From Acorus gramineus (lineage: Eukaryota; Streptophyta; Magnoliopsida; Acorales; Acoraceae): DNA of 64,000 nucleotides. The stretch covers positions 10,846,034-10,910,033 of the forward strand of contig CM060853.1 of assembly GCA_030737835.1 (NCBI GenBank). The letters run 5' to 3'. The translations under genes and the position numbers were made by a program. Below the pieces are notes generated by a model that did not search any database, was not told where the DNA came from, and was given only the letters and a program-made list of their open reading frames with translations. This document shows, piece after piece, positions 14,157-59,964 of this stretch; the stretch's first letter is position 1; every line of letters starts with the position of its first letter.

Positions 14157-15934
14157 TCAGTGGGGAACTTGGAGTACTTGTGGGAATGCCTTGTGTGGAA
14201 GTCTTGAAACAGTTGGGAACTTCCAGTCCATGGAGAGCAATTCAGGAGTCTTCTTATTAGCAGATAATGCTATGTTGATGAGCTTAAGTAGGACTTCCTC
14301 AAACTCCTCTGCATCGCTCCACTCGTGAATTTCGGCCTTCAACAATAAAGGGCTGCTGGTGATCAGCTCCCACACAGGGTAGTTCTTCCTTGGCATCATA
14401 AAATCTCCTTTGCCCAACTTAAGCGACGAGCAGTAGTCGCCTTTTCCGTCTCCAAGGTATATAATTCGTTTTTTTTCTTCTGATGACATCGAGTCTTGGA
14501 TTCGCTTGATGATCACACCCTGGGTATGGCAAAGGTTCATATCAGTTTGAGCATGAGCTTCCTTTATGTTGTGGAAATTGTGAGCATTATCATTGTTTTG
14601 ATTCATTAAATCTCAAAGCATCCTCATTGATTACCAATGTATGTTTATAACTGTTATATGTACTGCTAAATCACTCTTCTCATTAAGTATATGTTATGCA
14701 TAACATATTCCATGTTCATGTGTAGTTTCAGTTTTGCAGTGAATAATAGTACCTTGCACATGTTTGGAGGGCAGGGGTTGGAGCAGCCATGTGAGGCAAA
14801 GTTGAAGTCATGGTAAGGTTGGATCCTCAGCTTCCCTTCCTCATCTATGAAACTTTGATTTGTGTTGATCTCCGAAAAGCACTCGAACAATCCATGGTGC
14901 TTCAATATGGTCTCTATGAAGAAGTGATTTGCATCACTCACTATCCTCAATTCACATCTGTTGATGGCAACAAACAAACACATTTGAGACCATCAAAACA
15001 ATGCATTCTCATCCATAACAAGCACATATCATATATACCCCAAAGCATGGCTGTTTTGATGGCTGAGATGATCTGGGGATTCAGAGGAGCAGTTCTCAAA
15101 CAGTCTGCAATGTCTTCAATGGTCTTCCCTTGTGAGTGCAACTCACTCATCATTCTATCCTGGAATCAGTAACAAATTGAATTATCGATATCTCCATTGA
15201 TGGATTTAATGAAACCAGAAACTAACTAATATTTCTCTACGCACGACATGTGAGTGAAATAATATTAATAAATAATATGATAAGTTTATGAACTATTATG
15301 AAATAAATTATCAATGATAAAATAAAATAAATTAATTTGATGATCAAACCCTTTAATCCTAATGAATTTTTTTAAGAATACAATAAAATAATTTGATGAT
15401 CTAAACCCCTTTGATTCCAATGAATTTTTTTAATAATAAAATATAACATCATATAATAAAAAAAAGGAATCCACACACATCCCTATAACCCACCAAATAC
15501 TGTGATATGTTAATAAGCCACTAAGAATGAATAGAAAAATGCTCAAAACACAAATCACATATGTTTTTATTTTTTAAAAATAGTAAATAAGATTATATGT
15601 TTTGATGAAAAAAATGTACATCGCTCCATTTCGAATTGAATGAATCAATTTTCAGCAAATTTAAAAACAAAAAAATTAACTAGATATATACTTCGTCTAA
15701 CGATATAAATGTTTCATTGAATTTCTAATGATGTTAACTCACCAATAAAATAATTAAATTAAATTAAATAAAAAAAATAAACTAATGAGTGAAAAGATTT
15801 GACAAACCATGAGGGAGTTCCATGGCATGGTGGGGAGGAGTTCCTCGAAGAAGGCAGTGGCGCCCAAACCGTCGACAACCCAATTGTCGGTGTCGCAGTC
15901 GACGATCGTCGAAGATCACAACAACACCAGCCAT
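14157..15934 (-). pseudogene. HAD phosphatase pseudogene, PECP1/PS2-like, third copy
   Basis: It is colinear with the intact genes at 55332 and 58656. Equivalent exons on the minus strand are 15808-15934, 15039-15159, 14753-14957 and 14157-14519, with splice sites preserved. Exon 1 is 127 bases rather than 138: an 11-base deletion after MAGVVVIFD removes the second Asp and the Thr of the DxDxT catalytic motif and shifts the frame, and translation would then stop early in exon 2. Exon 2 lacks one further base near its end (ACAGCCATG where the others have a third C). Exon 3 lacks one codon. Exons 3 and 4 are otherwise well kept, including IVSDANHFF and LGDGKGDYC, so inactivation looks fairly recent. 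A shorter product from an internal ATG would lack the catalytic nucleophile. The upstream block with ATTCCTTTGGAATC and a TATA-like run (about 16050-16060) is still present. Confidence 0.85.
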
Positions 15935-17911: not shown

Positions 17912-18067
17912 TAAGGGGCTTAAAATTATAAAAAAAAAATTGGGTTCATAATAAAAATTGTCCAATTATTAAATTTTTTTGGTGAACAGAACCAGACATA
18001 CATTGTAATTAGTTTAAGTTAATTTTATCAAATTAGTTTTTTTTTTTTAAATATGTTTTGTTTTTTT

Positions 18068-18594
18068 GGGTGCAGTTACTACCACCCCATCAATTCCTCC
18101 ACCCACCCCTTTTATATATATATATAATTTTTTTTTATCATAACCCATCCCTCCATTACAGAAAAAAAAAAAAAAAAACCCTCGACGCCCCCTCTACCAA
18201 TCGATCACCCACTCCCAAACCAACCCCCCCCCCCTCTCTCTCTCTCTAAAAAGAGGGGCCAAAGAAGACGAGCCCCCTCAGCTTCACCATCGCCTCCGTT
18301 GCTTCATGAGGGACCAACCCGTGATGGCAACGGTGGCGGCAAACGCCGTCGTCGGATGGGGGTACTCGAGGCTCGTGGTGATGGCCCTCGATGCCGCCTG
18401 GAACCTCGCGTTCGTCCTCGTTTCAGCGGGAGCTTTAACGTTGACAGCGAGGTAGAGGCCGTTGGTCCCAATTAGGGCCTGGATCGTCGAACGGTGGTCG
18501 AGGGTTTTTTTTGTAACGGATGGGTGGGTTAGGATATATATATATATATATAAAGGCTTGGTGGAGGAGTTGACGGGGTGGTAGGAACTGCCCC
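18068..18594. mobile_element. Pack-MULE-like element carrying a host gene fragment
   Basis: Inverted arms lie at about 18068-18186 and 18498-18594. Read inward they match over the whole arm: GGGTGCAGTTACTACCACCC versus GGGGCAGTTCCTACCACCCC, then TCCTCCACC, a TATATA tract, AACCCA.CC, ATTACA/GTTACA, a poly-A run and CCCTCGAC. The 311-bp core is strikingly GC-rich against AT-rich flanks and encodes a RING-ligase-like fragment (separate entry). Both flanks are T-rich (TGTTTTTTT / TTTGTTTTT), so a 9-base TSD is possible but not proven. TIR length, start with G and a captured GC-rich exon all fit a Pack-MULE. A (CT)n tract lies at the left edge of the core. Confidence 0.68.
18306..18490 (+). pseudogene. 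Captured fragment of a RIE1/At1g12760-type RING E3 ligase gene
   Basis: The plus frame from ATG 18306 reads MRDQPVMATVAANAVVGWGY, then SRLVVMALDAAWNLAFVLVS and an AGALTLTAR block. A stop at 18453-18455 sits where the family usually has Glu, and the same frame then continues RPLVPIRAWIV. Plant RIE1-like membrane RING ligases carry an N-terminal membrane segment of the form 'DWAYS.PVV..D..WN.AFV' followed by 'ERP..P.R.W..GY', which this matches. The RING domain itself is absent. The fragment lies wholly between the inverted arms and is very GC-rich. The match is from memory of the family and was not searched. Confidence 0.58.
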
Positions 18595-18604
18595 TTTGTT
18601 TTTT

Positions 18605-19560
18605 TTTCCCGTGTTGCTTTCCCGCACGTTTTCTTTCATTTATTCCCTCTCTTTTCGCGCCATATAAACAGACACGCATGCGTGGGCCCCAAACGACTTT
18701 TCTCCATAATTGATATTACATTTCTACCCTTTTGAAATAAAGATATCAAGGAAGACTACAAGGGTAGATTAGTAAGTTTAATCAGCCCAAACCGCCTCAT
18801 TTTCGTGGCGTGTTATATGTAATGCGTGGTGTATTTTGCAAGTTCCATATGTATCGCATGCAATCACTTGCTGTAATAAGAGATGGTGTTGCTGTAAATG
18901 TCATGTACATGATGATTAGTTTTATACACGTGTTAAAAATACATGACTTAGACATTTAATGTGTAATTAAATGTTCAAGATGTAAATATAATACTGATAT
19001 GAATAACAATATAAACCATCGAATATTCCTTTTAGAAGAACTCATTCACTTATCTAATTTACATGATGAACTCATTCATCATTGTGAAACACATGGGTTT
19101 TAGGCCTAAATTCATTTCGGACGGAAGGTTTATTGTACTTAATTCATTTTACAATCTCAAATGTGCTATCATATACCTCATTAGACCCTTTCACTCACTA
19201 TTATAAAGTATATAATTCATTATAAAATTTTATGATTTCTATAATTAATATCATTCAATTCATTTAAATATATAATTTATCTTTTAAAAATAGAAATCTA
19301 ATTAGATAAAATATATAATTTAAAAAAAATAAAAATATGTATCATCAGTGTTTTAAACTGATGGGCTTGCAAGCACAATATTTGGTTGGGTAGGGACAGA
19401 TGTGGACTGGGCCGCAAGAATGTGTGCAGACCCAAACAAATGATTGTGTTATCATATTTTAGGACAGGAGAGCTGATGCACTCAGTTCGTTTATAACTTT
19501 GTTTATAGTGTAGTGCAGTTATAATGCACTATACCACAGTGTAGAAAATTATAAAAAATT
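18605..19560. other. Intergenic DNA, no gene seen
   Basis: This is AT-rich sequence with tracts resembling dispersed MITE pieces (19200-19330), and small palindromes around GTGTAGTGCAG and TATACCACAGTGTAG near 19510-19545. No coding region is supported. Confidence 0.4.
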
Positions 19561-23801: not shown

Positions 23802-24968
23802 TCAGAAGAGCTTCCCAGCAAACTCATTCTCTGCCTCTGCAAGTCCCTCCAACTCTGACACTCTCCTTCCAAGCTGCAACCCGACCTTCAACTCAAACAA
23901 CTCTCTGTCATCGTTGTTATTGTTCGCCTCCATTTTCTCCTCTATCGATTCCCCCAATCTCCGGTAGTACCCACCGCAGTTTCGGTACATCTCAAACACC
24001 ATCCCAACCTGTCCCCCGTGTTCAACCGTGTTCACAACCGTTGCTAAAGCCCCACCAACAACCGCCACTAAAACATTCCACACCCCATGCACCGGCGACC
24101 CGATCAACCCAGCCGCCACTGCCGCCGCCCCGCATAGAACCGGACCCAAAACCGCCAGGACCTTGTTCACCCTTAGCACCACCTCCCCAAGCCTCACGTA
24201 ATCTGCCACGTCTTTCCTCTCTATAACTTCCCTCACCCCCGCCATTACCGACGGTTCGGTTCTTCCCACCTTTACCGACGGTTTGGGTTTTTGCCGCCAC
24301 CACACCGCGGGTTCAACTCTCTCTGGGAACTTGTCGAGCATTGCCCCGAGAAGCGCGAGCGGGTACGCCACATCAATCGCGAGCACCCGCTCAACCGCCC
24401 TGCCAACATCCGAATTAGCGACGGTCCTCTGAAGTGCGATACCAGTGCGGACGTCGTTCTCGAGCTCCTTGAACAGGCGCGCGGCGTTCCTCTGCTCCTC
24501 CGCGAGCTGGGAGGGCTGGATCTTGTTGACCGCCACCATGAGGGCCGTCGTTGCCCCGTAAAGCAAGGCGGAGGAGACTCTGAAAGCGAGGCGCGGTTCG
24601 GGTCCGATGGCGGGGATGGATGCGAGCCCCGCCATGGCGGAGGCGGAGAGAGTGATTGAGTTAATGGAGTTCAAAAGGAGTGAATTCCAGTTGTTCCTCT
24701 GTTGCGCGATGTTTGAATGCATTTCAGCCCTGTCTGCCGCCGTGTCGGCGACTGCGTAAAGCTTGGCAATAGCGGCGGATTCACTTGTTTTGATCAGATC
24801 ATCTGTGGAAGTGGTGGGGAGCTTTGGGAGGGAGAGATGGGTGGGTTGTGGCCTTGGATTGGTGGGGATATGGAGGCTGGCATGCAAGGGGACCTTGCAT
24901 GGGGAGGAGGAGGAGATGGACATGAAATTCTTTAGGGGTTGTTTCATGGTTGTTGCTGCCATTGCCAT
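23802..24968 (-). CDS. Plastid-type membrane protein, 'probable F-box protein At4g22030' family
   Basis: A single uninterrupted frame of 388 residues, much more GC-rich than its surroundings. The first 50-60 residues are rich in Ser, Pro, Thr and Lys with few acids, as in a plastid transit peptide, and end in SLPKLPTTSTDDLIKTSES. An Ala-rich region follows (AAIAKLYAVADTAADRAEMH, QQRNNWNSLLLNSINSIT), then hydrophobic segments ALLYGATTALMVAV (about residues 135-150), NKVLAVLGPVLCGAAAVAAG (about 268-290) and VLVAVVGGALATVV (about 298-315), and an acidic C-terminus with ELFELKVGLQLGRRVSELEG. This pattern fits the plant family named after At4g22030. The F-box label is inherited: I see no convincing F-box motif. 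Function is unknown. The start was chosen as the first ATG with a transit-like N-terminus. The gene appears intact. Confidence 0.8.
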   Translation of the reverse strand: MAMAATTMKQPLKNFMSISSSSPCKVPLHASLHIPTNPRPQPTHLSLPKLPTTSTDDLIKTSESAAIAKLYAVADTAADRAEMHSNIAQQRNNWNSLLLNSINSITLSASAMAGLASIPAIGPEPRLAFRVSSALLYGATTALMVAVNKIQPSQLAEEQRNAARLFKELENDVRTGIALQRTVANSDVGRAVERVLAIDVAYPLALLGAMLDKFPERVEPAVWWRQKPKPSVKVGRTEPSVMAGVREVIERKDVADYVRLGEVVLRVNKVLAVLGPVLCGAAAVAAGLIGSPVHGVWNVLVAVVGGALATVVNTVEHGGQVGMVFEMYRNCGGYYRRLGESIEEKMEANNNNDDRELFELKVGLQLGRRVSELEGLAEAENEFAGKLF

Positions 24969-26570
24969 TGTTTTGGGTTTGTTTTTCTCTTGATTGGGTT
25001 TTCCTTGGGGACTGTTGGATTTGGTTTTGTGAGGGGGGTGTGATATTTATATTGGTTTGGTTTTGAAGGGGTTGATTTGACTGACTTATTTTGTTGTTGA
25101 CTTGCTGACAAGCATGTGATGTGAGTCTAAGGAAGGGGAACTGGTCCACCAAGGCATGAAAAAGGAAAGATGGTTGAATAGATTGGGTCAAATAGTAGAA
25201 TTGGTGTGGTGTGCTGGGCATGTAACTTTGGTTTAAAAGAATTTGAACGGATTCAAATTGGTTTTATTTCAGGTTAGAGGTCAATAATTTTCATGGTTTG
25301 GTTTGGATATAAATTAAAAAATTAATAAATTGACCTATATATATATATATGTAAGTCCTCAAAAAAAATGATCGCATGATCACATGCTAGTGGGCTAAAA
25401 AAAAATGATCGCATGCTAGAGAATTATCTATACTTAATGTGAAAGGAAGACATCAAGCTATTCTTATATTAATTATTATATTGGTAGAATAAGTCATTTT
25501 TAATTTGGTTGTGTTTTTTTGTTATTTTTATTGAAAAATGTTATAGTGAAATTTATTATTTGATTGACCATTGATGAATTGTAAATATGAATAAAATTTT
25601 GATAAAAATTTATAAAAGATGAAAAAATAATTTATGAGCTCTCTTATATAAGTGGAATAGATTGGATGGAGTAACACAATTTGAGAGGACCTAGAATATC
25701 AATATATACCAACTTATTCTCGTCTATTTTGACATAATTATGCCCACTTATTCCCGTCAAACAAATGCTTTTTTGGGCTTATTCACTCAACCCTATTCAA
25801 CATTTATTCGCTACCCCGATAGGAAATTAATTTATGGGTACTATTATAATCAGTCATTTCTACTGTCTAAAATGCAATCTATGTATATACTTCATCAAAA
25901 AAAAATTATACTTATTAAAAATGAGTTCGTTCAGTTCGAAATGAAACGATATATATTTTTTATCAAAACATATACTTTGTCAAACAATGTTTATTATTTA
26001 ACAAAAAAATAAAACTAAATGTAACATTTTCCTTAATTTTCACTCCTATGTACGTAGCCGCTAAATTTTTTTTATGTTTTCTATAAATGGATCGATACAA
26101 TTAATTTAATTATACATTTCATTTTTAAAATGAAATATTTTCATTTTTTTGTCATCATATATATATATATTTTATAAAAACATGTATCTTACTAAATAAT
26201 GTATATTATTTTTAAAAAAAATTAAAAATTTTACAGACACAATCTGGACTGCCATAAGATATTCCAAAAGAAAAACCGATGAGGTTTGTAGATGAGTCTA
26301 CACGCAGGACTGAACATATCATTTCCAAAAGTTTTGTCCATGTATACAATGGATTATAAATAGTACAAGGAGTTTTTACACTACAGCTGATGAACAACAT
26401 TCAAGCAGATATGTAGTGGTCCCATATACACTTTGCCCTTCATAAATGAACAAAATACCATCCTCTCATGGCTCAATCACTCATGTATTGGGTAACATAA
26501 AGGAAAGCCTAAAATATGAGAAACCAATGTGACCATGAATTTGATCAGACACACAAAATGTGGTACTGAT
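24969..26570. other. Intergenic DNA with MITE remnants
   Basis: 24969-25250 is the upstream region of the minus-strand membrane-protein gene. 25480-25800 and 25880-26060 resemble the two MITE families seen elsewhere (GAATAAGT motifs; AAATGAGTTCGTTCAGTTCG and ATATACTTTGTC motifs). 26230-26570 probably includes the 3'UTR of the homeobox gene. Confidence 0.4.
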
Positions 26571-29500: not shown

Positions 29501-30682
29501 CATCAGGATATAGACAAGGACTGAGGTAAATATACATAACTCAAAGATAACACATTAGAAAAATAATATGATCATAAACCGTCATATCTTTGTCAGATTT
29601 TCTTTAATACAAATGGTTCACATGCTCTAAATATTAAAACAATGATAAATGTATCCTACTTCAAAAAAAGCATATACCATTTGCATCAGGGTTAACAGTT
29701 CAACTTTCTTGTTATTATTTCCTTGTCTTTGCAGAGGTAGCTCCGCGGAAGCCTGAGTTCTGATTTCACCAGCAGAAGATGGAAACTCATCATTATGCGT
29801 CACTGAAGGCCCACCTATCGAATCATCAACATCATTCTGGTCTTCTAATGCAGAGCTTGCAAATTCTGAAAGTATTTCTTGGGTCACATGGAGATACTTC
29901 GATCCTATCAAAACACGTAAAAACTGAACTGGATGAGAGGAACCACAATCCAAAGAGAGCTCGTTGTTGCTGTGTGTTTGTCCTGATTCTGAGCACATTG
30001 GAAATCGCAGATCATTCAAAGAATGCTGGATGATATAACTATGATCTCTCGATGTATCTTGAGTTATGCTCGAGGAGGTAATCCCTGAGCACTGGTCAGG
30101 GAGAGCCGGTATGTCCATGATTGAAGCTTGACATGTTCCAAGTCTCAGTGATAACTCGTTATTGGGTGCACCACAAACATATGAATCTCCTCCTACAACA
30201 TGATATGACGGGTGCACTCTACTAATGGTCCTCCCAGAAAACGCCTGATAGCCTAGAATTTCATCATAATCCAACCCTGTGTCATTTTGTGCACTGTATC
30301 CACAATTTACTGAGGTTGTGAGTGAAGAATCCGAACGATCATCCGAGACATATGTTCTCAACCCCTCCAACTGCAGTGATGGGTTTGCCAATGTGGAAAC
30401 ACCAACATGATTTTCTTGAATACTGGTACTTGAAGAGAGAAGGTTGGCAAGCGCATTGGCAGATAGTGGAGATCCCATGAAGTTATCTGTTATGTGAAGT
30501 CCATCCATGGAGGCTGACTGTAAGCTAGAAACCAAGGGATATCCATCCATAGCATCCCTTGGGACATTGCAATCTGAAGCAACGGGATAAAAGAGTGACC
30601 CTGAGAATATATGTGATGATGGAGAATCGATGGGGTTCTGATCTGTGATTGGCATTGGAGAATTGAATATGTTGTCCTCCAT
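26571..30682 (-). CDS. ATH1: BELL-class TALE homeobox protein, ATH1-like, 4 exons
   Basis: Coding exons on the minus strand are 29678-30682, 27323-27684, 26818-26878 and 26571-26729, all GT-AG and in phase, giving about 528 residues. The N-terminal region (residues 1-250) is Ser-rich and poorly conserved. The SKY box reads [20 protein letters not shown]. The BELL box follows ([11 protein letters not shown] joined to [20 protein letters not shown]). The TALE homeodomain starts [20 protein letters not shown], continues [20 protein letters not shown] and GLTRNQ, and ends in recognition helix [15 protein letters not shown]. The C-terminus is short. The SKY wording and the '[15 protein letters not shown]' block match ATH1 of Arabidopsis, a light- and gibberellin-linked regulator that pairs with KNOX proteins and controls internode and floral-boundary growth. 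Intron 1 (1993 bp) interrupts the BELL box and holds a tandem duplication. All key residues are present. Confidence 0.93.
29052..29303. repeat. Two tandem 126-bp units in intron 1 of the ATH1-like gene
   Basis: The units at 29052-29177 and 29178-29303 differ at only a handful of positions. Each begins GAAGAGAACAAAGATAGAT and includes CAATATTCAATATTATTC and TAGAACCTACAA. This is a recent local duplication, with no evidence of coding. Confidence 0.9.
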
Positions 30683-33600
30683 TAAGGTGCAAATCAGTTT
30701 AATTCAACAATTGGTAATAATGCGCAACACTGTGATGACTCAGATTCTTCTGAACAAATTCTGAATCTTTATGGGCAAACCAAAGAACAGGAGGATACTC
30801 TCTTTTTTCTTTATGCTTAAAAATCCTTTGATCAATAGTTGTTATCTGCATGCATTATAGACCACATTCAGAATTTATCAATTTAAATAATTGAAGACTT
30901 ATATTCAAAGTTTCAAACTGAAAGAAAAGAAAAAAGACTCATTCTCAAAATATGCATAAAATGTTGGTAGGCATCTCTGAAAGCATTCATAGATATAAAG
31001 AAACTCGTGATTCAGAAAACTCAGTTTGGATAAAGGCATTTATATCTTGGATAATATTCCCCTCTGATTTTCTAGATATCTGCCGAATTGCTTAAGTCCA
31101 CATCAATAAAAACACTGTAAATAGATATAACATATTATGTTCAAGGAAATTCTATTTACCAAATACCCAGATGGGTGACTAAAGTGGAGGGATCATATAA
31201 CATACAGCCAACTAGTTTTTTTTCTTTTGTTAGATTTTTTATTTTTAGATACAAGTTAAGTGAATACAATTAGAAGTCAGAGAAAGCTCCACACTCTTCA
31301 GATGCAATTTCTATCTTTTATGAGCTTCAAGACTCCTAACATGATCATTTGATGTTGCCAATGCTTTTCGATAAGAAGATAACATCAACTTTCTAATTTG
31401 CTTAACATTATCTAGGAAATCACAATTAATGGTAGAACAAAGAGTGAAGAAGCATATCTACTTTATTTCCAAAATGGTCAACAATCACATGAGGAACCAC
31501 GAACAGAGAAAATGAGGGAAATGAAATACAAGGAGAACAAGAGATGTCCCTATAGAAACTATGAATAGATAGATAAATATTTTTAACAAATTGCAAATAA
31601 AGCTTGTCGTGGGAGATTAGTTGTATTCTCCTATAAAGGTTATCAGACAAACAGTGGAACTTCAGCTACTTGCAAGGAACAAGTTTCACAAGAAAATTGC
31701 AAGCAGTCACATGTTGAACTTTAAAGAGAAAATTAAAGTGTGTAAAGCTTGGCCGAGGTTTACTAATAATTCTCTATTGAAAACTTCAGCAAAGCTGAGT
31801 ATTTACCTTTCAAGATACAATGTTGAAAATGATACTCACCTACAAGTACAAGAAATCCTTCTATAACCCAATAAAAATAGTTAACATACGCCATTAGAAC
31901 ATAACATGAAGCACAAAAGATACATGCATACGAGCATTCTATATAGAATGAGAAAACAATAAATGCTGAAAACAATAAAGATTCACACTAAAGAAGGTCA
32001 TGCTAATCACCAAAACAATTTGTCACCAGTATCACATTCATGATAGAAGTCAGCAATTTTACTTTGATAATACACTTAAAGTCATTCAAGGTAATTAATT
32101 ACAAGTCAAGATATATACTGAACCAATAACAAAACCCTTACATGTGAAGGGGGCTTTATCTAACACAACAGTGTTGCACATAAAATAATATACATGCCAC
32201 AGCAGAAGAAGATGTTGTTTCATTATTCAACAACAGGAGCAGAAACTGAAAGGCATACTTAAAATCCAACTAAAGCAAGAAATAAAGAATCTATGAAGTC
32301 CATAAAAACAACTCCAATGGTATGTGAAATACTGATGTGATCAAAGGAATGCATGGGAGTGAGAAAATGCAAGTGCCCACCTCTCTTGAGCATAGGAAAG
32401 AGCAGGCATCTCCATCTGATGGAAGGACTACTAGCAATATCTTCCTCAAAGCCTGTTTCAACACAAGGAAATGGACCTCAACATTCAACATGGAATAATG
32501 AGCTTTCAACCTCTTTTTTTCCTAGATGGACAACAATGTGATCCTCTCATGTTCAAAAAAACAGGAAGCATTATGGATTGCCTATTTATTAAAAAAAAGT
32601 TATATTACCTCAGATAACCAAAACAGGAAAGAAAGATGAAGTACATGGTTTCATCAATCACTCAGTATTTACACTCAAATGATGAGAATGAAAAGCCATG
32701 TGAGATGAAATAAGCTTTTTATTGACCCATCAGTGAATTGGATTTATCATAGAACACAAAAGACCAAATGAATGGGGTCCAAAGCTCATTTAAAGGAATC
32801 ATACATTTTCCCTTTCATCTAAAAACAAAATGCCAAAAAGCCATACACTGATTCTCTCCCTGCTGGTTCAGAAAGAATGACTTCTTTGATTCTTTCTCAC
32901 CAAAAAACATTATAAAAAAAAACTCAAAAGATAAAAATTCAGAACCAATCAAAAGACTCAAAAGTTCATGCAATTTGTTTTCAAAATTTCTTTCCTTTTT
33001 TTCCGCCACACTCTTATTCACAAAACCCAATAGTCCACTGTTCAAAAACAGATCCTTTCATGGGTACAATAATTTAAAACCCCTTCTAAGAAATCATAGG
33101 TTGTTTCCACTTTTCACCCCCTCAAACCCCAAATTCCACCCAACCCACAAACCAAAAGCAGATTTTAAAAATAAAAAAGAAAAGGGTGTTAATGGATGTG
33201 CTCTCCTTTTTCAGGCAGCCACAGAAAACCAAAAAAAAAAAAAATCAAAAAACAAGAGAGACCCAAAATTGGGAAACCAACACCAAATGCAGGAAACAGT
33301 CCAAAAACCCTTTATCAGAGGGAGTGTGAGAGGGGTACATACATGGCCCATCAATCAAAGCTTTGCATCCCAAAAGCTATAATGAAAAAAAAAAAAAAAG
33401 GGTATATAGAGAGTGAGGGAGAGGAGAGGAGGTGGAAAGAAAAAGAAAGAGAAGGTACAAAGAAGAAGAGCCACACAAAGAGAAAAAACAAGAATTGATG
33501 AGAGAGAGAGAGAGAGATTACTCTTTGGGCAGTGGCACTCATATCCCTTGCAGGCTTTTGGGGGCCCATCCCTTCTCCCCATCTGCTCTGCTTTGTCTTC

Positions 33601-39773: not shown

Positions 39774-42700
39774 TATGGGTGGTGGCCAAATGGCCCGTGA
39801 GCCCGGACCCGGCCCATATATTTTCCGGCTTAAGTTGGGCCCGGGCCTTCCATAGGGTCGGGCTGGGGCCTTAGCAAAAACCCCAAAGCCTGGCTTGGAG
39901 CCCGGCCCGGGAAAGCCCGCCCGTAGGCCCGGGCCCGATCCGGTCATGGACCCAACGGATATTTTTTGAAACCCTCCCCAACGGTTATTTTTTGAAATTT
40001 GGTGGATTCCATTGTAATTTGAATTTTAAAATAAACAAAAACACTATAAATATCCCCATAACCTTTCAAGTTTCAATCACTTATCTCTCAAACTCTCTGA
40101 AGTTGCTCTACGAAGTTCAAGCGGAAGTTTTTATGTTATTTGCTAAATCATTTGATTGATCTCTCTACTCTCTTCTTCTTTCATATATTATTTATATTAA
40201 TATTTTTTAACATTACAATGGCTGATAGTTTTGCAGATAATGTTTTTAGAGTTGATGCTGAAAATCCATCAGTTGGTTCCCCCGCTATAGATGAAGTTGG
40301 CACCTCCAAACCAAAACAAAAACCTTCAGCAGCTTGGGACACTTTTGACAAGATAAGTGTTCAAGATCCTACAAAACCTGCGAGATTATTTCAAAACATT
40401 TGCTAAATGTCGTTTCTGTGGTAAGGAATTAACTGCTAATTCTTGTAGTGGCACTAGCCACTTAATTAGACATGCTGCTGAATGTACCCGTAAAATTGTT
40501 GGATCAAAATTTCAATCACAATTAAGTAGAACTTCGACTAGGCAATTATCAAATTTTAGTTTTAATCAAGTTGTTGCTAGAAGAGAAACTGTGAAATATA
40601 TACTCAAGACTGAACAACCATTTTCATGGCTTGAGCATCCTGATTTTGAAGAGTGGATCCAAAAAGCTTTTGGTCCTCAATTTCAACCAATTTCTCGCAA
40701 CACGGTTAAAAGAGATGTCGAAAAATTATAGGCTAAAGAGAAGACAGATTTACTTGTAACCCTTAGTAATATTCCTGGAAGAGTTTGTTTAACTTCTGAT
40801 TTATGGACTTCTAACCAACCTTTATGTTATATTTCACTAACAGCTCATTTCATTGATGCAAATTGGATATTGTAGAAAAGAATTATTTGTTTCTCTGATC
40901 TTGATGCCCCCTATATAAGACAAGTGATGGCAACTAGTATCATCAACCAACTTCAAAATTGCGGTATTTATGAGAAAATTTTTACAATTACTTTAGATAA
41001 TGCTTCTTCTAATGATGTTTTAGCTAGATTTCTAGAAAGATGCTTGCCTTCATGTACAACATCCAAATTATTAATGTTCGTTGTTGTTGTCATATACTCA
41101 ATCTTATTGTGCAGGATGGTTTAGAAGCCGTTAAGCCATTTATTGAGCGTATAAAACAATGTTTCATTTATATTTTTTCTTCTACAAGTAGATATCAAGA
41201 ATTTCGTCAAGCATGTAAAACTGCAGGCCTTAGAAGTAGAAAAATACCGACGGATGTTAGACATCGGTGGAATTCTACTTATTTGATGATTGAAGCAGCT
41301 CTTCCTTATAAAAATGTTATTAGTACATATTTGTTACAGAAAAATTATGATGATGAAATTAGTCTTGAAGATTGGGCATGCTTAGAAATGATTAGAGATT
41401 TATTCAAAGTTTTTTATAATGCTACTGTTTGTTTTTCTGAAATTATTATGCTACTTCCAACCAGGTACTACTCCATTTGTTCCATATTTGTGATGTTTTT
41501 AACCAACATAGAGATGAAGTTGCTTTTGAACCAATTTGTGAAGCAATGGAGGCAAAATTTCAAAAATATTGGAAAAAAATTCCCATCATTTTTGGATTAG
41601 CCACTATTATGGACCCTCGTTTTAAAATAAGTGGTCTGCAAATTTTAGTTGAATATATTTATCAATGTTTTAATGGTCCTGATAGTGGCACGGATTATGA
41701 AAATATTGCTCAAATTAATTCTGTTTTACAAGCTATGTTTGAAGAATACAGGTTTCAAAGGGAGAATACTCAAAGATAAAGCGTTGAAGCTGATACATCC
41801 TCATCACAACAACCGAGGGAAAAATCAGTGTCAGGGTGGAAACAATTCAAGGTGCGACTAAGCACTCTGAACCGGTCGCTAGGTGGCAGTGGTACATCTG
41901 AACTACAACGCTACCTTCAAGAACCAAATGTCGAAGAAGATGGCGAAGGGACTTTTGATGTTTTGGCATGGTGGAAGGGGCAAGAAAATCGATTTCCTGT
42001 TCTTTCTGCTATGGCTCGAGACTTATTAATTGTTTCTGCTTCACAAGTTGCTTCAGAATCAGCATTTAGCACTGAAAATCGAGTATTGGATGATTATAGA
42101 AGTCGTTTACATCCAGATGTAGTCGAGCAGTGCGTGTGCCTACGAGATTGGTACAAAGCACAACAAAGAACTCAGACTATCTTGGCTGAGGAGGCTCTTG
42201 AAGACCAATTTGATGATGTTGTAAATTTAAATTGAAATTTAGTTTAAATTTACTTGTTTTCTTGTCATTTCTTGAAGGATGGCTTTGGGTAGAGTTGTGC
42301 AAATGATAGATAAAATGGTAGGTGCCAACCTAGTTGGGATGTACTTATTTTATTGTGATGCAGTCATCACCCACAAGCTAATATTCAATCATTGTAATGT
42401 TCCATTAAAATATTTTTCTATGAGTTTATAGTAGCTATTCAATTAATGTTCAAATATTTCTTGTTGTAAACTTATAATGTGCAATTATTGTGAAGTTATA
42501 TCAATATTCAATTCAAATAGTTTTATTGTTCATAGTTCAATTCAAGTTATTCAACTTTTTTATTTACTTTATTGTATGTTTTAATTTAACTAAAAAAATG
42601 AAAAAAATAGGTGTGGGCACAAAGCCCGGCCCGAACCTTAAGCTAGGCCCGGCCCGGCCCGGCCTGACTTGGCCCGTTCGTGGCCGGGCCTATGGGTGGG

Positions 42701-42817
42701 CCCGGGCCTGATTTTGGACTTTAGGCCCGGCCCGGACCCGGGCCCGAAGCCTCTCAGGCCCGGTCAAGGCCCGCCCGAAAAAAGCCTCGCCCGAGCCCGG
42801 CCCATGGCCACCCCTAA
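39774..42817 (+). mobile_element. hAT-family DNA transposon, 3.04 kb
   Basis: An 8-base duplication ATCATCCC (39766-39773 and 42818-42825) flanks the element, as expected for hAT. The ends read TATGGGTGGTGGCCAAATGG (left) and TTAGGGGTGGCCATGGGCC (right, inward). Both subterminal regions (39790-39955 and 42610-42805) are packed with GGCCCGG/CCGGGCC motifs, strongly GC-rich against the AT-rich interior; these are likely transposase-binding repeats. The interior carries a decayed transposase gene. Confidence 0.92.
40219..42235 (+). pseudogene. hAT transposase, BED-finger RICESLEEPER type, decayed
   Basis: The N-terminus starts MADSFADNVFRVDAENP. A BED zinc finger follows (KCRFCGKELT...TSHLIRHAAEC, about 40405-40485), then hAT core blocks (RVCLTSDLWTSNQPLCYISL, FTITLDNASSNDVL, 'RCCCHILNLIVQDGL', IPTDVRHRWNSTYLMIEAAL, ATIMDPRFKI), and the C-terminal dimerisation domain (SASQVASESAFSTENRVLDD, YRSRLHPDVVEQ). 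The coding frame is broken: a frameshift just before the BED finger (about 40380), in-frame stops near 40729 and 40873, frame changes near 41060 and 41470, and a stop at about 41777. No active product is expected. Family members usually have about 650-700 residues, which the total length fits. Confidence 0.88.
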
Positions 42818-42825
42818 ATCATCCC

Positions 42826-43590
42826 TTTAATTCTTCCAGCCCCACAAAATCGTATTTTTCCCTCTGTAAGTGCATATATGTTTTCTATAACTTAGATAAT
42901 ACAAAATGTAATTTCTCTAAATATTATCTATAAATGCATATTATGTCATGTAAAAATAATAACTTGAAAAACACTAGAGAAACATACATTTCATATATTG
43001 TCATGAAGTACACTGGTTGGTGTTTGATTTATTTGAGTGTTCGACTAATTATCGCATCTCTAATATAGTTTGAAATGCGCGCGCTTTCTTTCTAATGATA
43101 TACGCTTGCTAACTCGAAGGTGTAACAATGGATTTGATTTTAACTAAAATGACATGAAGATGATCAGATTAAATACAACATCTTAGTTCATTAGGATAGG
43201 AAAAGAACATCGGAATGCAAACATTATATGAATTTAAGTGCTTTGATGTATTTATTTTGATAAAATATTTTCAGGTATTATGCATTAACGTATGTTTCTC
43301 TAGTATTTTGCAATTAACATTTTTACATGACATGCATAGTAATGCACTTACAGATAATATTTACAAATATTATATTTTATGTTCTGAAAGTTACAGAAAA
43401 CATATATACATTTACATGGGGAAAGTGCGATTTTGTGGGGCTTGGGGAATTAAATGAATGAGGGTAGAAAAAAAATTAGGTGTTTACTGCAGGGGTAAAT
43501 TCTTTTTCAAAGGTGGGGGCATAGAAAATATTGGGGGGGGGGGGGGGGGGGCTGCAGGGGTATTTGGACAATTAACCCTTTTTCTTTTTG
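42826..43590. other. Intergenic DNA, no gene seen
   Basis: This is AT-rich sequence with a G run of about 20 (43533-43551). No coding region is supported. Confidence 0.4.
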
Positions 43591-55068: not shown

Positions 55069-55213
55069 CATAATATAATTCTATTCTTCATTGTGGTGGC
55101 TTAGCCACCACCAAAAAATGAGAATTCAGATTTGCATGGCATCCGAAAACTTCTCAACAGCTTCCCTTTATACGTAATATTCCTTTGGAATCTTCACTTG
55201 TGCCATCCTCACC

Positions 55214-55221
55214 TATATATA
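55214..55221 (+). promoter_or_regulatory. TATA box of phosphatase copy A
   Basis: TATATATA within CACCTATATATATTCAC is conserved in all three copies (58545-58552 in copy B; about 16050-16060 on the minus strand for the pseudogene). It lies about 110 bases before the ATG. Confidence 0.6.
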
Positions 55222-55331
55222 TTCACATAAACCTTCACATCCTCCTCTCACAACAAAACCATTCTTTCTTTTGCATTGTTAAGCCTTCTCTACAATTCTC
55301 TTCCTTTAATTTCTCTCTAAATTCCCCTTCA

Positions 55332-56968
55332 ATGGCTGGTGTTCTTGTGATCTTTGATTTCGACAAGACGATCATCGACTGCGACAGCGACAACTGGGTC
55401 ATCGACGGTTTGGGCGCCACCGCCCTCTTCGAGGAACTCCTCCCCACCATGCCATGGAACTCCCTCATGGTTTGTCAAATCATTTCATTCATTAGTTTCT
55501 GTTTTCATTGTATCCGTTAATGGAGATATTCATAATTCAATTTGTTACTGATTCCAGGATAGAATGATGAGTGAGTTGCACTCACAAGGGAAGACCATTG
55601 AAGACATTGCACAATGTTTGAGATCTGCTCCTCTGCATCCTCAGATCATCTCAGCCATCAAAACGGCCCATGCTTTGGGGTATGATACATATATATATAA
55701 TAAATCTTGTTAACCAATACCCACTCATCATTTTGAGAATGTATGTTTTTCATGGTCTCAATGTGTTTGTTTGTGGTCATCAACAGGTGTGAATTGAGGA
55801 TAGTGAGTGATGCCAATTACTTCTTCATAGAGACCATATTGAAGCACCATGGATTGTTCGACTACTTCTCGGAGATCAACACGAATCCAGGATTCGTCGA
55901 TGAGGAAGGGAAGCTGAGTATCCAACCTTACCATGACTTCTTCAACTCTGCCTCACATGGCTGCACCAACCCCTGCCCCCCAAACATGTGCAAGGTACTG
56001 CTTTTTATTTTCTGTCCCTGAAAAACTAAAGCTATATATGTATATAAAACTGGATTGTTAACATAAGATCCTCCTGTGGTGGGAACTTGTGGTGCATCAT
56101 GTGATAAACTCATCACTTTCTTTCTTTTTTTTTTTCAATAAGTTTGACTATAACTTTGAATGATAAGTTTTTTTTTCCTTCCAGAGACATCTATTAGTTG
56201 TCTCTCTTTAAAAAAAAAGGTCTACATGTGTACCCAACTCTGTCAGCCATCATTTTCATATTTTGGACATCTCTTGTGTGTGTCAAATGGGATACACAAA
56301 TCATACATATCAACTATCAAGTAAGTCTTGGGAGATTTGAACTTGAGACTTATGGGAAGCAAATCCATGGCTCTGGCAAATTAAAAGTAATATTTCACCA
56401 AGGACCAATGAACAACATGAACAACATATCACTATGGGGAAGAATGATTTAGAAATACAGATAGATAACATTTATATATATACAAACAAACAATGAAGGT
56501 TCTTTGAGATTTTACGCAATCAACGCTATCACACTGGTCACAATTTCAACAATATGAAGCAAACCTTATGTTTAAAACTGATGTATATATATTTGTCATT
56601 CTCAGGGGTTGATCATCAAGCGAATCCAAGATGCGATGCTATCGGAAGGAAAGAAGCGAATTATATACCTTGGAGATGGAAAAGGCGATTACTGCCCGTC
56701 GCTTAAGTTGGGTGAAGGAGATTTTATGATGCCACGAAAGAACTATCCAGTGTGGGAACTGATCACCAGCAACCCCTTATTATTGAAGGCCGAAATTCAC
56801 GGATGGAGCGACGCAGAGGAGCTCGAGAAAGTCCTCCTTAAGCTCATCAACACAGTATTTTCTGCTGATAAGAAGACTCCTGAATTGCTCTCCATGGACT
56901 GGAAGTTCCAACCTGTTTCGAGGCTTCCACATGAGGCATTTCCACAAGTACTCCGAGTTCCCCACTGA
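55332..56968 (+). CDS. HAD phosphatase, PECP1/PS2 (PHOSPHO1-like) family, copy A
   Basis: Exons 55332-55469, 55558-55679, 55787-55994 and 56606-56968, GT-AG and in phase, give 276 residues. HAD motif I is FDFDKT (D9 and D11). Motif II is IVSDAN (S94). The acidic motif is LGDGKGDYCP (D180, D184). A Cys-rich stretch SHGCTNPCPPNMCK lies near residue 150. These fit plant phosphoethanolamine/phosphocholine phosphatases and related pyrophosphatases (PECP1, PS2/PPsPase1), which remove phosphate from small soluble substrates during phosphate starvation. Substrate preference cannot be read from sequence. It is intact, with a P1BS site upstream. Compared with copy B its proximal promoter lacks about 230 bp. 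Residue differences from copy B are few, so the duplication is fairly young. Confidence 0.93.
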
Positions 56969-58655: not shown

Positions 58656-59964
58656 ATGGCTGGTGTTATTGTAATCTTCGATTTCGACGAGACGATCATC
58701 GACTGCGACAGCGACAACTGGGTTGTCGACAGTTTGGGCGCCACCGCCCTCTTCGAGGAACTCCTCCCCACCATGCCATGGAACTCCCTCATGGTTTGTC
58801 AAATCTTTTCACTCATTAGTTTCTGTTTTCATTGTATCCATTAATGTATATATCCATAATTCAGTTGTTACTGATTCCAGGATAGAATGATGAGTGAGTT
58901 GCACTCACAAGGGAAGACCATTGAAGACATTGCACACTGTTTGAGAACTGTTCCTCTGCTTCCTCAAATCATCTCAGCCATCAAAACAGCCCATGCTTTG
59001 GGGTATGATATACATAAATCTTGTAAACCAATACCCGCTCATCATTTTGAGATTCATGGTCTCAATGTGTTTTGTTGTCAGGTGTGAATTAAGGATAGTG
59101 AGTGATGCCAATCACTTCTTCATAGAGACCATACTGAGGCACCATGGATTGTTCGACTACTTCTCGGAGATCAACACGAATCCAGGATTCGTCGATGAGG
59201 AAGGGAAGCTGAGGATCCAATCTTACCTTGACTTCTTCAACTCTGCCTCACATGGCTGCAAAAACCCCTGCCCCCCAAACATGTGCAAGGTATAGCTTTT
59301 TTATTTCCTTTCCTGCAAAAATAAAGCTATGCATATATAACTGAATTGTTAACATGAGATCCTCCTGTGGTGATTTGGGAACGTGTGGTGCAGCGTGTGA
59401 TAACTCAACTTTTTGTTTTCTTCAATAAGTTTGTCTATAACTTAATAATAAGTTTTGTTGCCTTTCAGTGTTTAAATTGATGTATATATGTATTTTTCAT
59501 ATATACATTGCCAATCAACACTATGATACTGGTCACAATTTCCACAATATGAAGCAAGCCTTGTGTTTAAATTGATGTATATATGTATTTTTCATACTCA
59601 GGGTTTGATCATCAAGCGAATCCAAGACTCAATGATATCAGAAGGAAACAAGAGAATTATATACCTTGGAGATGGAAAGGGCGATTACTGCCCGTCGCTG
59701 AAGTTGGGAGAAGGAGATTTTATGATGCCGAGGAAGAACTACCCAGTGTGGGAACTGATTACCAGCAACCCCATATTGTTGAAGGCTGAAATTCATGAAT
59801 GGAGCGATGCGGAGGAATTAGAGAAAGTCCTCCTTAAGCTCATCAACATAGTATTATCGGCTGAGAAGAAGACTCCTGAATTGCTCTCCATGGACTGGAA
59901 GTTCCAACCTGTTTCAAGGCTTCCACATGAGACATTTCCACAAGTACTCCGAGTTCCCCACTGA
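58656..59964 (+). CDS. HAD phosphatase, PECP1/PS2 (PHOSPHO1-like) family, copy B
   Basis: Exons 58656-58793, 58881-59002, 59082-59289 and 59602-59964 code for 276 residues with exon lengths identical to copy A. Motif I reads FDFDETIIDC, motif II IVSDANHFF and the acidic motif LGDGKGDYCP, so all HAD catalytic residues are present. Differences from copy A include D-E-T versus D-K-T in motif I, SYLDFF for PYHDFF, and SHGCKNPC for SHGCTNPC. Intron 3 is shorter than in copy A. An upstream in-frame ATG at 58608 would add 16 residues, but copy A lacks a matching start and its exon begins MAGV, so 58656 is preferred. The role is the same as copy A; the promoters differ, so expression may differ too. 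Confidence 0.93.

Follow-up and report, generated by a model that had tools for sequence, protein, structure and literature searches.

What is the short GC-rich island between inverted arms at 18068-18594 of the window, the 64-kb stretch of DNA analysed here? The original prediction had placed at this site inverted arms of about 100-120 bp around a GC-rich core in an AT-rich region, and both features hold on closer measurement: the arms span ~97-112 bp each, and the core has a GC content of 0.61 compared to 0.32 in the flanks and a window mean of 0.338. Arms of this size are long terminal inverted repeats (TIRs), which together with target-site duplications (TSDs) of 8-11 bp are reported for Mutator-like elements (MULEs) (PMC6446971). 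An exact 11-bp direct repeat, TTTGTTTTTTT, immediately abuts the ~527-bp element on both sides, at 18057-18067 on the left and, in identical form, at 18595-18605 on the right, with a best 9-mer match of 9/9. The duplication is T-rich, so its length is ambiguous between 9 and 11 bp (TTTGTTTTT(TT)) and slippage could account for part of it. The left TIR (18068-18179, plus strand) starts with GGGTGCAGTTACTACCACCCCATCAA, a motif that recurs genome-wide, and closes in an A-run; the right TIR (18498-18594, minus strand) is separated from the core by a short filler (18490-18497) seen in the alignment. The inner borders of both arms and those of the filler were set by inspection. The outer parts of the arms pair without gaps over 58 nt (18069-18126 with 18537-18594, 86% complementary) and the inner parts pair at 18171-18197 and 18486-18512 (81%). 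The predicted RNA fold of the element has an energy of -249.4 kcal/mol versus a mean of -165.2 for dinucleotide shuffles (z -14.2), and 0 of 100 shuffles folded as well. In this fold the long stem is built from arm sequence, while the ligase piece of the core occurs once in the transcript and forms short, imperfect helices inside the stem.

The ends of this element belong to a family with members across the 398.6-Mb genome. A degenerate 22-base arm-end motif, GCNGTTANTNCNACCCCAYCAA, occurs at 168 places with at most one mismatch compared to 0 for a reversed-pattern control, which rules out the arms as by-products of TATA, poly-A or CT repeats; the inverted pairs, the genome-wide motif and the fold z-score likewise rule out a chance hairpin. 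The motif has two subtypes, TTATTTCAACC and the window-type TTAYTACCACC, and the window-type arm pattern was found at 80 ends within two mismatches (control 0). We then compared flanking repeats in the 24 family members for which both ends could be set, a set that leaves out loci with one recognised end (L016-L019, L037-L041, L048-L050, L052, L054-L057, L059-L061, L063 and L064, among others). The duplications matched at 9/9 positions in 14 elements and at 8/9 in 7, with one element each at 7, 6 and 4. Thus 21/24 real elements reached 8 or 9 matches, compared to 1.99% of 552 mismatched pairings of left and right flanks. The interiors of the 24 elements range from 0.42 to 0.69 GC and their flanks from 0.24 to 0.44. 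Eighteen of the 24 interiors are at or above 0.59, in agreement with the preference of Pack-MULE capture for GC-rich sequence published for rice and maize (PMC3310237, PMC4858842).

We next asked where the core came from. The segment at 18192-18489 (plus strand) aligns at 89% to C2:22727280-22727570 (query 125-422), with an identity of 0.904 over 292 aligned columns that include an ATG. This place on contig C2 is the sole core-only match (89-90%) listed in the search of the plant's own genome, and the arm motif was not found at this locus (L005 and L009). The match falls in the CT-rich 5'UTR and the beginning of the first exon of a multi-exon gene on the minus strand. Pfam returned nothing for exon 1 of this gene; its identity as a RING ligase therefore rests on a downstream exon that encodes a RING-H2 domain (zf-RING_2, E 2.8e-15, 56.7 bits compared to a cut-off of 27.3) and that has the RLIM RING as its best match among solved structures (E 3.6e-12). 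Translation shows, by eye, hydrophobic exons between the first exon and the RING exon, and the gene is a candidate for the RIE1/At1g12760 type of ligase, which has a hydrophobic N-terminal part and a C-terminal RING-H2. The claims that the core is a RING-ligase fragment and that its parent lies elsewhere in the genome are thus borne out, the former through the parent's own RING exon. The same match rules out a chance GC island. Outside the ligase piece, the 527 bp consist of arm sequence and a few filler bases, with no transposase inside.

The captured piece retains the parent's own ATG and, from it, an open frame of 49 codons (18306-18455, plus strand) that ends at a TAG (18453-18455), the single stop that had been predicted at 18453. 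The parent has GAG (Glu) at this position. The frame of the window copy from ATG to stop reads MRDQPVMATVAANAVVGWGYSRLVVMALDAAWNLAFVLVSAGALTLTAR, while that of the parent reads MRDQPATATTAANAVAEWGYSRPVVMALDAAWNLAFVLVSAGALTSTARERP and continues beyond.

The genome holds at least four full-length places with this element, a lower bound since the genome searches score best candidates only: the window copy, on contig C7, and copies on C32, C76 and C4 that are 82%, 81% and 78% identical to it. Their TSDs match at 9/9 (window and C32) or 8/9 (C76 and C4) positions and all differ from one another. Four different duplications on four contigs therefore indicate four insertions. In the alignment, all four copies have both borders of the captured piece in common, along with ten changes relative to the parent. 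One of these is the G-to-T change that creates the stop at codon 50 (E50*), present in 4/4 copies; the other nine could instead be changes in the parent. The common stop and borders are most simply read as a single capture event followed by multiplication. The copies differ from the C2 parent at 8-12% of aligned sites. Transitions present in some but not all copies affect 25 of 74 CG, 9 of 21 CHG and 13 of 94 CHH sites, and 5 of 103 A/T sites; the difference between CG plus CHG (34/95) and CHH (13/94) has a Fisher p of 0.00067. This surplus of C-to-T changes at CG and CHG suggests, from the pattern of decay, that the copies have been methylated and silenced. By inspection, the sequence AAACCCT lies on the core-facing edge of the right arm and recurs in the 5'UTR of the parent, at the position of the piece's left border. 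Its presence at both places fits copying through short homology of the kind described for animal Pack-TIRs (PMC8277862).

The long TIRs, the ~9-bp TSDs, the many related ends, the source gene elsewhere and the four copies with the same piece place this element in the Pack-MULE family, and we are highly confident that it is a non-autonomous Mutator-like transposon with captured gene DNA. The original prediction of a Pack-MULE-like element, made from the sequence alone, has accordingly stood, with duplications of Mutator length, a parent gene and an arm family all found. Alternatively, the element could be a miniature inverted-repeat element (MITE) or foldback, any likeness between its GC-rich interior and a gene being fortuitous. 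The element is indeed short and GC-rich, and a related cluster of loci (L013, L014, L015, L020, L025, L026 and L028) has GC-rich, partly self-complementary interiors. However, an identity of 0.904 over 292 columns between the core and a multi-exon RING gene, 5'UTR and ATG included, refutes chance likeness for this element and leaves such an origin almost no probability. A Pack element from another TIR superfamily, such as hAT, with its 8-bp TSD, is a second alternative; the assignment to Mutator rests on the lengths of the duplications and TIRs. Matches to PF10551, a domain of MURA-type transposases, occur at 150 or more places in the genome; none of the 150 listed (150 of 1162 candidates were scored) lies within 15 kb of the 180 listed TIR places, which are those listed for both end patterns and include 100 of the 168 for the 22-base motif. 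Inspection by eye of the long frames at L048, L049, L054, L063, L046, L062, L064, L037, L038 and L040 likewise revealed no transposase and hence no autonomous partner; L048 and L049 are two ends on C11 that lie 3.5 kb apart and do not necessarily belong to one element. Nonetheless, 9/9 duplications in 14 of 24 elements and the combination of long TIRs with 8-11 bp TSDs given for MULEs (PMC6446971) make membership of another superfamily very unlikely.

A history consistent with the Pack-MULE assignment would begin with an ancestral element that carried these arms and copied the 5'UTR and part of the first exon of the RING-H2 ligase gene, probably during gap repair between the arms and templated by the short AAACCCT match seen by inspection. 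The E50* stop would have been gained before the spread or early in it, and a transposase acting in trans would have inserted the element at four or more places, each on a separate contig. Methylation of the copies by the host, followed by decay mainly through C-to-T changes at CG and CHG, would account for their present state.

Elements of this kind are already known, with about 3000 Pack-MULEs in rice (PMC8903248, PMC4858842, PMC3310237), and the element described here is a well-supported, ordinary further member. Like the Pack-MULEs of rice, maize, tomato and Arabidopsis, it is non-autonomous, with long TIRs, a TSD of ~9 bp and several copies of one capture, and it contains a gene piece without transposase whose source lies elsewhere; it differs in that the source is a RING-H2 ligase gene. 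In the tomato family PM-ZIBP there are also many copies of one captured piece with an identified parental gene, but the gene is another one and the TIRs are tandem in most copies (13, against a single TIR pair in one further copy), whereas the window element has single TIRs (PMC3310237). The working definition of Pack-TYPE elements used by packFinder, a TIR, a TSD and a hit to a coding gene, describes our element as well, although the elements newly annotated with that tool come from several superfamilies in rice and maize (PMC8903248). Among the publications on Pack-MULEs and RING fingers in the collection searched, no captured RING gene was recognised from titles or the openings of abstracts; the rice lists, with thousands of entries, may contain some. 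The locus is a clean example, open to checking, of how a Mutator-like family takes up gene sequence in a plant whose genome is AT-rich.

Does the captured piece do anything for the cell? Most likely, the window copy has no present role and is a silenced relic, with arms that could at most promote a short transcript containing the 49-codon frame. If that frame or small RNAs were active, the element would be more than ordinary; otherwise it is biologically ordinary. One way to activity, raised in the original prediction but given little support by the element's anatomy, would be a small-RNA locus, in which arm-folded transcripts are processed into small RNAs acting against the parent ligase. The strong hairpin (z -14.2) is in keeping with such a role, 24-nt small RNAs map to the interiors and TIRs of rice MULEs (PMC4858842), and the literature mentions that Pack-MULEs may regulate their parental genes (PMC3310237). 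However, the long stem consists of the arms, so that dicing would yield mainly arm small RNAs; because the ligase piece is not part of the stem, the route to the parent would need extra steps, for instance convergent transcription or the action of an RNA-dependent RNA polymerase. The copies also show 8-12% divergence from the parent across aligned sites, together with methylation-like decay, and we give an active small-RNA locus only a slim chance.

The other way would be a selected small gene, with the 49-codon frame, the parent's ATG and its first hydrophobic segment yielding a micropeptide. The frame is open to the common stop in two of the four copies (window and C4). When all of the coding core is considered, copies compared with one another have a dN/dS of 0.362 (neutral mean 0.654), with 5 of 1000 simulations as low, and copies compared with the parent have one of 0.302 (neutral mean 0.682), with 0 of 1000 as low. 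Within the 49 codons, however, P was below 0.05 for two of the six copy pairs (0.012 and 0.023; the rest 0.122, 0.22, 0.258 and 0.828) and for two of the four copy-parent comparisons (0.023 and 0.046; the rest 0.187 and 0.21), which also reflect the parent's own constraint; these pairwise tests ignore shared history. Purifying selection on the captured frame thus gives an overall signal that is inconsistent from pair to pair, and we do not adopt it. Moreover, in the C32 and C76 copies the frame is cut short at a Trp codon, and second codon positions have diverged more (0.118) than the 5'UTR (0.094). It is therefore highly improbable that the frame encodes a selected micropeptide. The more specific version, in which the arms would drive a 49-codon membrane micropeptide without RING that competes with the parent ligase as a truncated form and is weakly selected in the window and C4 copies, is just as doubtful.

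If the arms define a gene-capturing family, other members should carry pieces of other genes, and the original prediction of elements with the same arms and other cores proved correct, with senescence-domain, P450 and C2H2 finger cores found. The core of L021, a two-ended element with window-type arms, is 75% identical to C10:14861521-14861925 (query 1-344 of 476), a match located inside a reading frame that encodes a Senescence domain (PF06911, E 1e-13). For two higher-scoring places, C8:4291501 (77%) and C7:4758743 (86%), a Pfam scan of one frame each gave no match. The C10 senescence-domain gene is a candidate source of the L021 core, though not necessarily the direct one. For the L047 core, the five near-full matches, itself among them, are all elements and have TSDs of 8/9 or 9/9 in 5/5 cases; the core is also 81% identical to C8:4569691-4569860 over 170 of its 901 bases, within a P450 frame (PF00067, E 6.2e-53). 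Collectively, there is fair to good support for the same kind of arm accompanying at least three gene sources, namely the RING ligase, the senescence-domain gene and the P450 gene. A C2H2 finger piece in L046 (28.1 bits, cut-off 25) and two neighbouring UDP-glucose dehydrogenase domain pieces in L037 and its relatives (22.8 and 22.1 bits, both short of the 27 required) are perhaps two further captured sources, which would make maybe five in all. Source genes for these two cores were not confirmed at the gene level, and no second arm was seen in the dehydrogenase elements: among L083-L088 a single end is visible in five and none in L087, and L037, L038 and L040 have one visible end each.

Several loci of the arm family have unusual structures. 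L021 (C7:14455961) and L043 (C7, about 14518000) lie 62 kb apart with cores that are 98.8% identical and near-identical TSDs, and are probably one insertion that was duplicated together with its surroundings; the same is probably true of L078 and L079, P450 elements on C11 that share a TSD. Such pairs limit the element counts given above. L064 (C7:10706509) is a tandem element, with the arm start in two direct copies 500 bp apart and nearly the same frame after each. At L046/L089 (C9:6911416-6913046), a single left end could pair with either of two right ends separated by 249 bp, each with 9/9 flanking repeats, indicative of a doubled right arm, and part of the interior recurs elsewhere at about 92%. 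The TTATTTCAACC subtype forms two large clusters with GC-rich, partly self-complementary interiors, one consisting of L022 (C83:147300-150000), L023, L024 and L027 and the other being the cluster of L013 and its relatives named above. The L022 core has many genome matches; 40 of its 97 candidates were scored and none could be recognised as a source gene. Some members of the two clusters may be foldback-like or very old captures.

Elsewhere in the window, the remains of a hAT transposon at 40357-42229 (plus strand) encode a BED zinc finger and a hAT dimerisation domain, and are followed by a GGCCCGG-rich tract at about 42630-42815. Pieces of a Put_Phosphatase gene (PF06888) lie at 55122-56962 and 59527-59958 (both plus strand), with a third copy or piece at 14163-14612 (minus strand). 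Among the few frames scanned, the nearest named genes downstream of the element are a 'Petal formation-expressed' gene (PF14476) at 23808-25046 and a POX-domain exon at 29633-30703, both on the minus strand. Finally, an AT-rich inverted pair at 42881-42939 and 43342-43400 (59 nt, 80% complementary, with 402 nt between) is perhaps another short inverted-repeat element.
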